The position numbers and the translations under genes were made by a program. Positions 22,153 to 27,043 of a DNA stretch of 49,361 nucleotides are shown piece by piece (the first letter of the stretch is position 1; each line of letters opens with the position of its first letter). The stretch is from Deinococci bacterium (GTDB lineage Bacteria; Deinococcota; Deinococci; Deinococcales; Trueperaceae). Location of the stretch: contig JASBRS010000007.1 of assembly GCA_030149325.1 (NCBI GenBank), forward strand, positions 1 to 49,361, read 5' to 3'. A model generated the notes under the pieces. The model saw nothing but the letters and a program-made list of their open reading frames with translations. It made no database searches and had not been told where the DNA came from.

Positions 22153-23124
22153 ATGATCCTCATCCTCACCCAAGCCAAGGGGACGGTCGCCGGCAAGGCC
22201 GACCTGGAGCTCATCCAGGCGGGCAGGGAGCTGGCCGCCGCGTCGGGGCTGCCGCTCGCGGGAGCCGTGATCGGGGCCGATCCGGCCGCCATGGCGGACG
22301 ACCTCGCACGCTACCTTCCCACCGTCTACCGGGTCGCTGCGCCCGAGCTGGCGGAGTTCCGAGCGGAGCCCGCCACCACCGCCGCCCAGGCGGTCGCGGC
22401 CGCCAGCGGAGCGCAGGCCGTGCTGGTGACGGCCAACCGTTCCGGGCTCAGCTTCAGCCCGCGCCTCGCCGTGCGCCTCGGCGCGGCGCTGCTGGAGGAC
22501 GTCATCGCGCTCGGCTCCGAGGACGCTCACGTGACCGCCACCCGCTACACCTACCTGGCACGCGTGACCGAGCGCGTTCGGGCCGAGACCTCGCCCGTGG
22601 TGATCAGCGTCAAGCCCAACGTCTTCGCCGCCGCCGGACCCGCGGACGGCGCCGGGAGCACGCAGGACGTCCCCGTCACCTTCGGCCCCGCCGATGCGCG
22701 CGTGCGCGTCGGCGAGCGCCGTCGTGCGCAGGGCGGGCGCGTGGCCCTGGAGGACGCCAAGGTCGTGGTCACCGGCGGACGCGGCGTCGGGGACGAGGGC
22801 GGTTTCGCGCGGCTGGTCGAGCCGCTGGCCGACCTGCTGGGCGCCGGCGTGGGCGCCACACGCGCGGTGGTGGACGCGGGCTGGCGCCCCTATGCCGAAC
22901 AGGTGGGGCAGACGGGCAAGACCGTAACGCCCGACCTCTACCTGGCGTTGGGGGTCTCGGGAGCCGTCCAGCACCTCTCCGGCATGAACCGCTCGAAGGT
23001 CATCGCCGCGATCAACAAGGACCCCGACGCACCCATCTTCAAGGTGTGCGACTACGGCATCGTCGGCGACGTCAACGACGTCGTACCCGCCTTGAAGGAT
23101 GCGCTGGCGGAGCGCTCTCGCTAG
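22153..23124 (+). CDS. etfA: Electron transfer flavoprotein, alpha subunit
   Basis: FAD-carrying partner of EtfB, 323 aa, beginning at ATG 22153 behind AAGGAG. The C-terminal FAD domain is clear: [57 protein letters not shown] and [20 protein letters not shown], which is the ETF-alpha signature region. The overall layout (alkyl dehydrogenases plus both ETF genes) makes this a local fatty or branched-chain acyl oxidation module; an ETF dehydrogenase is not in the window. Confidence 0.95.
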
Positions 23125-23179: not shown

Positions 23180-24364
23180 ATGTCGCCCCGCGTACGCCGG
23201 GCCGACCGGAGCGACCTGGCGGCGCTGGAGGCGCTCGAGCGCAGCTTCCCCGGGGACCGCCTGCAGCGCGCCTCGCTGGCCCGTCTGCTGGGGCGCGAGA
23301 GCGCCGAGCTGTGGGTGGCCGAGGTCGACGGTGAGGTCGTCGGCGACGCCGTGGTGCTGTTCCGCAAGGGCTTCGCGTCGGCGCGGCTGTACTCGCTGGT
23401 GGTGTCGCCGGAGAGCCGCGGCCGCGGGGTGGCGCGCGCGCTCCTGGCGCGGGCCGAGGAGGGTGCGCGGGAGCGCGGCGCGGTGTCGATGCGGCTCGAG
23501 GTCCGGGCCGACAACGACGCCGCCATCGCGCTCTACCGCAAGGTCGGCTACGAGGTGGTGGGCACCACCGCCGACTACTACCAGGACCACTCCGAGGCGC
23601 TGCGGATGCTCAAGCGCTTCGCCGGCGGCGGCGCCACCGTGTTGGGCGTGCCCTACTACGCCCAGACGCTCGACTTCACCTGTGGGCCGGCCTCGCTGAT
23701 GATGGCGATGCGCTACCACGGCTACCCGGTGCCGTTCGAGCGCTGGCTCGAGCTCGCCATCTGGCGCGAGGCGACCACCATCTTCATGCTCTCCGGCCAC
23801 GGCGGTTGCAGCGCCCACGGGCTGGCCGTGGCGGCGCTGCGGCGCGGCTTCCGCGCCACCGTGGTGACCCGCGACGCGGAGGTGCCGTTCCTCGACTCGG
23901 TGCGCTCGGAGGACAAGAAGGACGTGCTGCGCATCGCCCACCAGACCTTCGCGCGCGATCTCGAGGACCTCGGCGGCCGCGCGCTGCTGCGCGACTTCGA
24001 CGACAACGACGTGGTCGATGCGGTCGAGCGCGGCGCGCTGCCGCTGGTGCTGCTGTCGGGCTACCGGCTGTACGCCGAGAAGGTGCCGCACTGGGTGGTG
24101 ATCACCGGCTTCGACGACGATCACCTCTACCTGCACGATCCCTACATCCCCGACGGCGCCGGTCGTGCCGACAGCGTCCACCTGCCGCTCCGGCGCGACG
24201 CCTTCGAGGCGGTCAGCCGCTTCGGGCGGCGCCGGCACCGCTCGATGGTGCTGGTGGAGCGCTGGGGGAGCGTCAGCCGTCGCCCGCAGGGGGAGCGTCC
24301 TCACCCGCAGGGTGAGCGTCCTCACCCACAGGGTGAGCGTCCTCGCCGGCAAGGTAGCGGATGA
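23180..24364 (+). CDS. GNAT acetyltransferase fused to a C39-like cysteine peptidase
   Basis: A 394-aa two-domain protein. Residues 1-145 form a RimI-like GNAT domain with the acetyl-CoA loop SRGRGVARAL (79-88) and ALYRKVGYEVVG. Residues 155-360 look like a papain-fold C39-type peptidase: Cys168 in FTCGPASLMM, His304 in PHWVVITGF and Asp320 in YLHDPY form a likely triad. The last 25 residues repeat GERPHPQ. ATG 23180 is chosen because the GNAT fold begins at once and GGGGA precedes it; GTG 23126 and ATG 23099 are alternatives. Proteins with this fusion are known next to RLAN/RimK-type ATP-grasp ligases in predicted peptide-maturation systems, as here on the facing strand. Substrate unknown. 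Its 3' end overlaps the ligase gene by 92 bp. Confidence 0.88.
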   Translation: MSPRVRRADRSDLAALEALERSFPGDRLQRASLARLLGRESAELWVAEVDGEVVGDAVVLFRKGFASARLYSLVVSPESRGRGVARALLARAEEGARERGAVSMRLEVRADNDAAIALYRKVGYEVVGTTADYYQDHSEALRMLKRFAGGGATVLGVPYYAQTLDFTCGPASLMMAMRYHGYPVPFERWLELAIWREATTIFMLSGHGGCSAHGLAVAALRRGFRATVVTRDAEVPFLDSVRSEDKKDVLRIAHQTFARDLEDLGGRALLRDFDDNDVVDAVERGALPLVLLSGYRLYAEKVPHWVVITGFDDDHLYLHDPYIPDGAGRADSVHLPLRRDAFEAVSRFGRRRHRSMVLVERWGSVSRRPQGERPHPQGERPHPQGERPRRQGSG

Positions 24365-25211
24365 TGGCCTCGTAGATGTCGGGGTCGGCCTGGTCCTCCT
24401 CGCCGGCCGCGATGGTGGGGTTGTCGTTGACCTCGATGACGTAGAACTCGCCGTCGATCTCCTTGAGGTCGATGCCGTAGAGGCTGCCTCCGATGGCATT
24501 GGCGGCCGCCAACGCCACCTCGACCAGGCGGGGGTCGGCGCCGTCCCTGGGTACGCCCTCGACGGTGGCCCAATCGCCGGCTTCGCTGCGGTCCATGGTG
24601 CGCCAGCCCTGCGCGGCGAAGCGGTAGCGCACCACCGCCAGCACCCGGCCCGCCAGCGTGATGACGCGCCAGTCGAAATCGCTGGGGAGGTACTGCTGGA
24701 TCACCAGCCGGTCGGCGCGGCGGAGGAAGCGCCGGCCCACCTTCTGGAACGCTTCGGGGGTGGCCACCTTGTCGACGTAGAGGCTGAAGCTGGAGTTGGG
24801 CGCCTTGAGCACCAGCGGTGCGCCGAGCTCGTCGAACAGCCGCTCGGCGGTGGCCTCGGAGAGCTCGTCGTCGCCCAGGAAGCGCGTGACCGGGATCGGC
24901 ACGCCCTCGCGCTCGAGCCGCGCGTACATGTTGACCTTGTCGCAGCAGATGCGGATCGACTCCGACTGGTCGAGCACGCGAATGCCCAGCATTTCGGCGG
25001 TGCGGGCCACCACGTAGCTGGTGTTGAGCGGGTCGGTGAGGGCGCGGATGAGGACGCCGTCGTAGTTGCGAAGGTACTTCAGCTCGTCCTTGAACAGGAA
25101 GTCGAGCTCGTGCCCGAGCTCGAAGGCCGCCAGGCGGAAGTTGGTCAGCGCCGTGAGCTCCACCGACGAGCGGATGGTGTAGCGCTCGGCGAAGATGGCT
25201 AGGCGTGCCAT
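24273..25211 (-). CDS. RimK-like ATP-grasp ligase
   Basis: Probably joins an amino acid to a carboxylate using ATP, as RimK adds glutamate to ribosomal protein S6. The 312-aa product has the ATP-grasp fold: nucleotide-binding Lys in CCDKVNMYARL (92) and LVLKAPNSSFS (136), and metal ligands Asp248, Glu260 and Asn262 in YGIDLKEIDG and YVIEVNDNPTI. ATG 25211 overlaps the end of the upstream RLAN gene by 13 bp. In many bacteria RLAN and this ligase are one polypeptide; here they are split. The C-terminal 23 residues repeat GEDAHPV/A and come from the same 21-bp DNA repeat that encodes the tail of the convergent peptidase. Substrate unknown. Confidence 0.88.
   Translation of the reverse strand: MARLAIFAERYTIRSSVELTALTNFRLAAFELGHELDFLFKDELKYLRNYDGVLIRALTDPLNTSYVVARTAEMLGIRVLDQSESIRICCDKVNMYARLEREGVPIPVTRFLGDDELSEATAERLFDELGAPLVLKAPNSSFSLYVDKVATPEAFQKVGRRFLRRADRLVIQQYLPSDFDWRVITLAGRVLAVVRYRFAAQGWRTMDRSEAGDWATVEGVPRDGADPRLVEVALAAANAIGGSLYGIDLKEIDGEFYVIEVNDNPTIAAGEEDQADPDIYEAIIRYLAGEDAHPVGEDAHPAGEDAPPAGDG
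24283..24345. repeat. 21-bp tandem repeat coding on both strands
   Basis: Three adjacent 21-bp units, the second being CCCGCAGGGTGAGCGTCCTC plus A, with one to three changes among copies. They sit in the overlap of two convergent genes. Plus strand: PQGERPH units of the GNAT-peptidase. Minus strand: GEDAHPV-type units of the ATP-grasp ligase. The unit is a multiple of three, so copy-number changes keep both frames. Confidence 0.9.
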
Positions 25212-25837
25212 GTGCCCAGCTCCTCGACCAGGGCTCGCTCGTCGGGGACGAGGTCCTTCCACGGCAGCGGCATGATGGCGGACAGCAGGTAGGCGCGGGC
25301 CGTGACGATGACGCGTACCCGTGCCAGCGGCAGCCGGAAGGCGGCGAACACCGCCTCGGCGAAGGCCTGGTACTCGGGCACCAGCGTGCGCCCGAGGACG
25401 CATCGCACCACGTCGATGCGGTAGTCCTCCGGCAGCTCCTGGCACAGCACGGCGTACTTGCCGGTGTAGGTGAGCCCCTTGCGCCGGGCCTCCAGGGCGT
25501 CGGCGTCGACGAGCAGCTCCCCCTTGCTGGAGAAGGGGTTGACCGGGTAGGCCATCATCGGCGGTGCCGGGAAGCGACTGGTGGCGATGTGGAAGGTGGG
25601 GACCCCGAGCCCCGCCAGCCGCGCCTTCTCCATGGCGATCGGCACCACGTAGGCGTCGAGGGCGTCGGCGGGCGTGGGGATGAGGCGGAGGCCGGCCAGC
25701 TCGCCGTCGAGCGAAGCGTAGTAGCCGCGTGTCAGGTAGCTGTAGTCGCCGTCGAGGTTCGCGAGATCGGCCTCGACAGGGCCGGCGCCGGGCCCGAAGC
25801 GTTCCGGGTCCAGCGCCAGCCTCAGGGGGGCGGTCAT
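25199..25837 (-). CDS. RLAN-domain protein (RimK-like ATP-grasp N-terminal domain), stand-alone
   Basis: A 212-aa protein matching by eye the RLAN domain that is usually fused in front of RimK-like ligases: residues 24-50 read ADLANLDGDYSYLTRGYYAS, then a segment ending GLRLIPTPADALDAY, close to the family pattern of NL-x-YxYLxxGYYxSL followed by a strand and IP. The second half (YPVNPFSSKGELLVD, LCQELPEDYRIDVVRC) is less familiar and may contact the ligase. RLAN proteins have no proven function; substrate-peptide recognition has been proposed. ATG 25837 lies five bases after the pgk stop, and the 3' end overlaps the ligase gene by 13 bp, so gap, pgk, RLAN and ligase form one likely operon. 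Confidence 0.75.
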   Translation of the reverse strand: MTAPLRLALDPERFGPGAGPVEADLANLDGDYSYLTRGYYASLDGELAGLRLIPTPADALDAYVVPIAMEKARLAGLGVPTFHIATSRFPAPPMMAYPVNPFSSKGELLVDADALEARRKGLTYTGKYAVLCQELPEDYRIDVVRCVLGRTLVPEYQAFAEAVFAAFRLPLARVRVIVTARAYLLSAIMPLPWKDLVPDERALVEELGTWHA

Positions 25838-25842
25838 GGGCT

Positions 25843-27021
25843 TCAGCCCTCCAGGGCGGCGACCCCGGGGAGCGTCCTGCCTTCCAGGAACTCGAGGGCG
25901 GCGCCGCCCCCGGTGGAGATGTGGCCGATGCGGTCGGCGAGCCCGCTGGCGTTGACGGCGGCCACGGAGTCGCCGCCCCCGACCACGGTGAAGGCCGGCA
26001 GCTCGGCCACCGTCTTCGCCAGGGCGGCGGTGCCGGCGTCGAAGGGGGGCGTCTCGAAGACGCCCAGCGGTCCGTTCCAGAACACCGTACGCGTGCCCTC
26101 GAGGGCTTCGCGGAAGGCGGCGACCGCCTGGGGTCCGACGTCGAGGCCCATCATGCCGTCGGGGATGGCGTCGGAGGGGTGCACCTCGGTGGCCACGCCG
26201 GCGCGCAGCTCGCGCGCGCACACGCTGTCGACGGGCAGCACCACGCGCACGCCCGCCGCCTCGGCCGCGCGGAGCAGGTCGCGGGCGGTGTCGAGCTGAT
26301 CCTCCTCGACCAGGGAGGCGCCGGTCGAGCCGCCCTGGGCCGCGAAGAAGGTGTAGGCCATGGCGCCCCCGATCAGGATGCGGTCGGCCACCTTCAGCAG
26401 GCTCGACAGCACGCCGATCTTGTCCGACACCTTGGCCCCGCCGAGGATCACCGCGAAGGGGCGCTCCGGCCGTTCGAGCAGGCGCGACAGCGCCCGCAGC
26501 TCCTGCTCCAGCAGGTGGCCCGCCGCCGACGGCAGCAGCCGCGCCACGCCCTCGGTGCTGGCGTGGGCGCGGTGGGCCGAGCCGAAGGCGTCGTCGACGT
26601 AGAGGTCGGCGTAGCCGGCGAGGATGCGGGCGAGCTGGGGGTCGTTCTTGGTCTCGCGGGGGTCGAAGCGGGTGTTCTCGAGCAGCGTGACGCTGCCGTG
26701 GGGAGCGTCGGCCACGAAGGCCTGCTGCTCCTGCGAGCCGGGGCCGTCGCAGGCGAGGTAGCGCACGTTGCGCCCCAGCAGCTCCTCGAGCCGCGTGGCG
26801 ACGGGCCGCAGCCGGGCCCCCTCCTCGACGCCCTTGGGGCGTCCCAGATGGCTCATCAGCACCAGCGTGGCGCCGCGGGAGGCGAGCGCCTCCAGCGTGG
26901 GCAGCGCCGCCCGGATGCGGGTGTCGTCGACGACCTGCCCGTCCCGGATGGGGACGTTGAAGTCCACCCGAACCAGGACGCGCTTGTCCTTGACGTCGAG
27001 GTCCTCGAGGGTCCTGAACAT
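25843..27021 (-). CDS. pgk: Phosphoglycerate kinase
   Basis: Transfers phosphate from 1,3-bisphosphoglycerate to ADP in glycolysis. The 392-aa length is standard. ATG 27021 is preceded by AGGAG. Motifs: [11 protein letters not shown] at the substrate site, [39 protein letters not shown], and the nucleotide-site [11 protein letters not shown] and [12 protein letters not shown]. It follows gap after 76 bp with a hairpin between, and precedes the RLAN gene by five bases, an unusual partner for a glycolytic gene. Confidence 0.96.
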
Positions 27022-27043
27022 GCTGGCTCCTAGCGTGCAGCGC

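Follow-up and report, generated by a model that had tools for sequence, protein, structure and literature searches.

A split RLAN/ATP-grasp pair and a convergent GNAT gene in the Truepera family: a predicted peptide ligase system in which RLAN is most likely a degenerate ATP-grasp subunit

The RLAN protein that is encoded beside a RimK-like ATP-grasp ligase in the Truepera family of Deinococcota is, as judged from fold models and profile comparisons, most likely itself a degenerate ATP-grasp ligase. In the stretch of 49,361 nucleotides analysed here (the window; contig JASBRS010000007.1 of assembly GCA_030149325.1), these two genes face a third gene that codes for a GNAT acetyltransferase, and we see about an even chance that the trio constitutes an ATP-dependent peptide (carboxylate-amine) ligase of two subunits together with a partner acetyltransferase, a system that would produce a small N-acetylated peptide. 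A C39 peptidase domain, which is fused to the acetyltransferase in the window, is dispensable to the system.

The gene trio and its domains

On the forward strand, the GNAT-C39 gene (23180..24364, 394 aa) codes for a RimI-like GNAT domain (23180..23629; match to TIGR01575) that is followed by a C39/papain-like peptidase domain of the DUF3335 type (23648..24256; match to PF11814). The protein (23180-24361) is matched in Pfam by DUF3335/Peptidase_C39-like with an E-value of 4e-73 and by Acetyltransf_1 (GNAT) with 7.5e-19. On the reverse strand, the ligase gene (24273..25211, 312 aa; protein at 24276-25211) matches RimK ATP-grasp with 3.7e-11, and the RLAN gene (25199..25837, 212 aa; protein at 25202-25837) matches PF14401 with 2.4e-12, which is the sole family match of this protein and which, with 47.2 bits, lies above the curated cut-off of 25. 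PF14401 is matched by all 15 members of the RLAN family set, and profile comparison connects the split RLAN to the fused RLAN domains of five Proteobacteria (P 4e-17). The four domains RLAN, RimK, GNAT and C39 are thus all encoded together in the window. Upstream of RLAN, phosphoglycerate kinase (pgk, 25843..27033, reverse strand) follows at a distance of 5 bp, and etfA (22153..23124, forward strand) precedes the GNAT-C39 gene by 55 bp; most relatives have the same two neighbours.

The earlier note on this DNA had placed the three genes at exactly these coordinates, which a recheck of the open reading frames and translations upheld, and the domain make-up that it had named from the letters was borne out by the HMM search for all three proteins, including the assignment of the 25199-25837 protein to RLAN. 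It had also called the expected catalytic residues complete, and they are present and conserved: Cys168, His304 and Asp320 in the C39 domain, Glu107 and Tyr119 in the GNAT domain, and Lys92, Lys136, Asp248, Glu260 and Asn262 in the ATP-grasp protein. Which of the conserved residues of the three domains are catalytic was assigned from general family knowledge, and Glu107 and Tyr119 presumably correspond to the catalytic pair of RimI. RLAN has no comparable catalytic residue set of its own.

The nearest PDB matches of the ATP-grasp protein are RimK, LysX and ArgX, and its score with the RimK model TIGR00768 is 79.4 bits, below the cut-off of 143.4. The GNAT domain is the best match to RimI (TIGR01575) in the genome, yet with 80.5-83.3 bits it stays under the cut-off of 86.4, and we therefore do not regard it as the RimI of this genome. 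Furthermore, the GNAT domain and, weakly, the ATP-grasp protein match the two halves of the N-acetylglutaminylglutamine (NAGGN) synthetase model TIGR03103 (9e-8 and 0.04), at a model score of 31 bits that is far below the cut-off of 569.

Distribution and linkage

The window comes from a genome of the Truepera family. Among 111 Deinococcota genomes searched, RLAN was found in 24 and DUF3335 in 20, all within this family, and neither was found outside it. A Truepera sp. contig (JAGXSJ010000119.1), which was matched by the window RLAN, has the same three-gene arrangement, and orthologs of the ATP-grasp protein (at least 64% identity) occur in 23 of 61 genomes, always together with RLAN unless the contig ends inside the cluster. 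The supposed co-occurrence of the three genes in relatives could be confirmed by a neighbourhood survey: the trio is complete in 22 loci of the Truepera family, in each of which RLAN and the ATP-grasp gene are co-directional and the GNAT gene is convergent, and in complete loci ligase, RLAN and GNAT are never found apart.

In 18 of these 22 loci, the trio is located between the ends of a GAPDH–pgk run and an acyl-CoA dehydrogenase–etfBA run. The other four (G001, G012, G016 and G017; the contig of G001 offers little sequence on one side) have neither metabolic flank and still contain the intact trio, and this integrity after relocation argues for a shared function. The neighbours of the relocated trios have no extra gene in common, and no conserved small gene or precursor gene was found among them.

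Outside the Deinococcota, a Planctomycetales locus (L042, 5011-7042) encodes a split RLAN, an ATP-grasp protein and a GNAT without C39 domain, all on the same strand. RLAN was not found in viral contigs, and phage matches of the fused RLAN-ligase protein span the ATP-grasp part only. An anti-phage defence system was considered as well and rejected, as no PADLOC model matched.

The RLAN/ligase overlap and the convergent 3' ends

RLAN and ligase are separate genes that overlap by exactly 13 bp (25199..25211, reverse strand; ATGGCACGCCTAG), with the GNAT-C39 gene on the opposite strand, as had been described before. The overlap contains the start of the ATP-grasp gene and the stop of the RLAN gene, and it is preceded by GAGGAG. 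The split is not peculiar to the window genome but fixed throughout the Truepera family, and two Planctomycetota loci share it; the 13-bp overlap is identical in all 24 split-form loci, the two from Planctomycetota included. In every locus, the RLAN stop is a TAG within codons four and five of the ligase gene, which demands CTA, ATA or TTA at that place. CTA accounts for 2 of the 387 leucine codons across nine genes of the window, and the ligase gene contains no other CTA. As the overlap codon is thus nearly unused in the window, the position of the RLAN stop is probably under selection. It is very likely that RLAN and ligase are produced by coupled translation.

At their 3' ends, the GNAT-C39 and ATP-grasp genes overlap by 92 bp, and this overlap runs through a 21-bp tandem repeat of 3.7 copies (24283..24359) that was found only at this locus, with a palindromic core (CCTCACCCNCAGGGTGAG) that occurs nowhere else in the window genome. 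Through the repeat, both proteins gain an additional C-terminal tail, made of GERPHPQ repeats from one strand and of EDAHPxG repeats from the other, and the aligned relatives are devoid of these tails.

The nature of RLAN

A structural model of the RLAN of the Planctomycetales locus L042 (AF2, alignment of four sequences; pLDDT 79.6, pTM 0.78) has LysX as top match in a Foldseek search of the PDB (E 5.2e-8, TM 0.64), and the best 50 of 400 PDB matches under 1e-3 are all ATP-grasp enzymes. The model of the window RLAN is weaker (pLDDT 61.6, likewise from a four-sequence alignment) and finds the same ATP-grasp class of matches; the fold matches of RLAN include the ATP-grasp ligases MdnC and PsnB. 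The models cover split-form RLANs only, namely these two proteins, which are 46% identical.

A relation to the partner ligase is detectable at the level of sequence profiles. The hhalign comparison of RLAN with the profile of its partner ATP-grasp protein gave P-values of 1.3e-4 to 2e-4 over about 105 columns, with a probability of just 54%. Its score of 35.7 was reached by none of 200 column shuffles (mean 15.0, maximum 23.7), and ten unrelated families scored at most 17.0. The comparison of fused RLAN with fused ATP-grasp and two cross comparisons pointed to the same region (P 0.0026-0.016), and the register agrees in all four comparisons. The similarity rests on these local hhalign alignments, as global alignment over the whole length gave nothing; no similarity was detectable between RLAN and the other RimK/LysX-like ligase of the genome, and the RLAN sequence profile did not match any ATP-grasp protein of the PDB.

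Could the fold match be an artefact of shallow alignments, with RLAN being an unrelated alpha+beta domain? Models built from only four sequences, the modest hhalign probability and the lack of a profile match in the PDB would agree with such an explanation, but two models of rather different proteins were both topped throughout by ATP-grasp enzymes, neither the shuffles nor the ten unrelated families came up to the profile score with the partner, and the same register was returned four times, so that we consider an artefact rather improbable.

If RLAN is a degenerate ATP-grasp ligase, the register of the alignment indicates what has been lost. The ATP-binding Lys136 of the partner aligns to Ala96 of RLAN, the E-x-N-x-N-P motif is missing, and the ATP-binding Lys and the Glu/Asn metal ligands are lacking (C-terminal register by eye). 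By these residues, RLAN is probably catalytically inactive. The earlier note had treated RLAN as a domain of unspecified nature that was simply split off, but it now looks like a degenerate ATP-grasp paralog. We hold it to be likely that this extends to the RLAN family as a whole, which would then be a degenerate ATP-grasp duplicate of its partner. The RLAN–RimK proteins would be pairs of an active enzyme and a pseudo-enzyme, the Truepera family and the Planctomycetota would have retained a less eroded and unfused form, and GNAT rather than the peptidase would be the obligate partner.

The peptidase domain is optional

In six of the 22 loci (G001, G005, G009, G012, G017 and G030), the convergent gene encodes a GNAT of ~146-156 residues without C39 domain, and DUF3335 was not found elsewhere in these six genomes. 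In one further locus (G033; L062, 9847-10968), the C39 domain is kept, with Ser in place of the catalytic Cys and without the His motif, and GNAT, ligase and RLAN are intact; judged by these residues, it is a natural dead-peptidase variant. Of the 22 loci, 7 thus have no C39 domain or a dead one, and in the window the domain is intact. G030 lies within a well-supported clade of C39-bearing loci and has thus lost the domain, and in case of the deeper GNAT-only lineages both early absence and later loss would fit. The earlier interpretation as a peptide or protein modification system is still the best reading, whereas the peptidase can no longer be regarded as an essential part of it, nor RLAN as a mere split-off domain.

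Proposed function

In the mechanism that we propose, the ATP-grasp protein would convert a carboxylate to an acyl phosphate and then join it to an amine. It keeps the residues of RimK/LysX-type enzymes, which suggests the ATP-dependent carboxylate–amine joining that is the established chemistry of this family. RLAN, translated beside the ligase by coupling, would pair with it as a heteromer, in which its probable role is to give the substrate site its shape or to keep the enzyme stable; the fusion of RLAN and ligase in other phyla and the fixed 13-bp overlap point to one complex, and such a heteromer is well supported. The RimI-like GNAT would subsequently acetylate the free alpha-amine of substrate or product, resulting in a small N-acetylated peptide, and acetyl transfer to an alpha-amine is likely in view of the retained Glu107 and Tyr119. 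Where present, the C39 domain may cleave the product or trim a precursor, and the system would work without it.

What is the product? N-acetylglutaminylglutamine synthetase, the GNAT–ATP-grasp enzyme of the NAGGN osmolyte pathway, makes an N-acetylated dipeptide. The weak likeness to this synthetase, the fact that neither a precursor nor a target is linked to the trio, and the neighbourhood of a GCS2-like ligase in Legionella together make a small N-acetylated peptide the best guess, and we tentatively favour it over a tagged protein. The Legionella case is a plasmid of Legionella adelaidensis (L091, 41-3232), on which RLAN-RimK is followed by the GCS2-like ligase and an N-formylglutamate amidohydrolase (FGase). 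This is a different RLAN system, perhaps with a glutathione-like tripeptide pathway. Such a pathway was rejected for the window, as GCS2 is absent in its genome and in all RLAN-positive relatives searched except G016 and G017, and the Legionella context is for the same reason not directly transferable.

The most serious rival is a tagging of proteins, in which the ligase would extend a housekeeping protein at its C-terminus by amino acids, the GNAT would acetylate it, and the C39 domain would remove the tag. The solved structures nearest to the ATP-grasp protein, RimK and LysX/ArgX, act on protein C-termini, and no precursor gene would be needed. RimI-like GNATs can act on proteins, and the GNAT fits this reading equally well. 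RimB acts against RimK, and a peptidase related to it, RloA, is encoded next to an ATP-grasp gene (PMC12239564). However, no conserved target protein is linked to the trio, a counteracting peptidase would be expected to be essential and is dispensable here, and the GCS2 neighbour in Legionella favours free amino acids; we therefore consider tagging possible, though unlikely. A graspetide-like tailoring, in which the ligase would cross-link a ribosomal peptide, C39 cut its leader and GNAT cap its N-terminus, could refer to MdnC and PsnB among the fold matches and to the C39 domains of bacteriocin transporters, which cleave leaders, but the 5 bp between pgk and RLAN are too short for a precursor ORF, the moved loci have no conserved small gene, there is no transporter and the C39 domain is dispensable, which makes it very improbable.

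Comparison with known systems

The grouping of RLAN, RimK, GNAT and papain-like domains was reportedly predicted by Iyer et al. in 2009, in Mol Biosyst 5:1636. The RLAN–RimK/GNAT–C39 systems of Proteobacteria (DUF3335; PF14401, PF11814) have the same domains as the window. In Azospirillum, GNAT-C39 is directly followed by RLAN-ATP-grasp in one direction, and fusions of RLAN with the ligase occur in Alphaproteobacteria, and were seen in Azospirillum, Tistrella and also Pseudomonas. Proteobacteria thus have RLAN N-terminal to the ligase in one chain and co-directional genes, whereas the window has split genes with a 13-bp overlap and a convergent GNAT-C39 gene, and the proteobacterial RLAN is ~45 residues shorter. 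NAGGN synthetase (TIGR03103) resembles the window in combining GNAT and ATP-grasp, but it is one fused chain without RLAN and C39. LysX/ArgX and RimK are the closest solved structures to the ATP-grasp protein and to the RLAN fold model, and we know of no degenerate partner subunit of these ligases. RimK–RimB and RloA–C of Pseudomonas pair a RimK-like ligase with a peptidase, as the window does, but this peptidase is a retropepsin, and those systems have neither GNAT nor RLAN (PMC12239564). A fusion of DUF3335 to GNAT has been documented (PMC10318531).

Related genes were also observed on plasmids. A Pseudomonas aeruginosa plasmid (L089, 7902-9491) has RLAN-RimK in a run with ggt, asparaginase, a Glu/Asp transporter and pagP, with no GNAT-C39 nearby. 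On a Sinorhizobium meliloti plasmid (L070, 4953-5621), a stand-alone DUF3335-like peptidase ends an ABC transporter operon and faces asparagine synthase and formyltransferase genes, with RLAN not nearby. PA1766-1767 of Pseudomonas, which had been considered as RLAN genes, proved to be the rlo operon.

Novelty and implications

In the literature searched, we found no functional study of RLAN, DUF3335 or PA1345. Although this type of system had already been predicted, its split form and what RLAN is seem to be new: an arrangement of split, convergent genes with a dispensable peptidase was not found in the sources searched, nor was the ATP-grasp nature of RLAN, which does not in itself prove novelty.

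Several bacterial phyla have RLAN next to a peptide ligase, and its Pfam name reflects this position only. The natural losses of the peptidase point to RLAN, ligase and GNAT as the core parts of the system. If RLAN is indeed a decayed ATP-grasp subunit, this class of enzymes would gain a concrete and testable architecture, for which the structures of RimK and LysX could be used as models.
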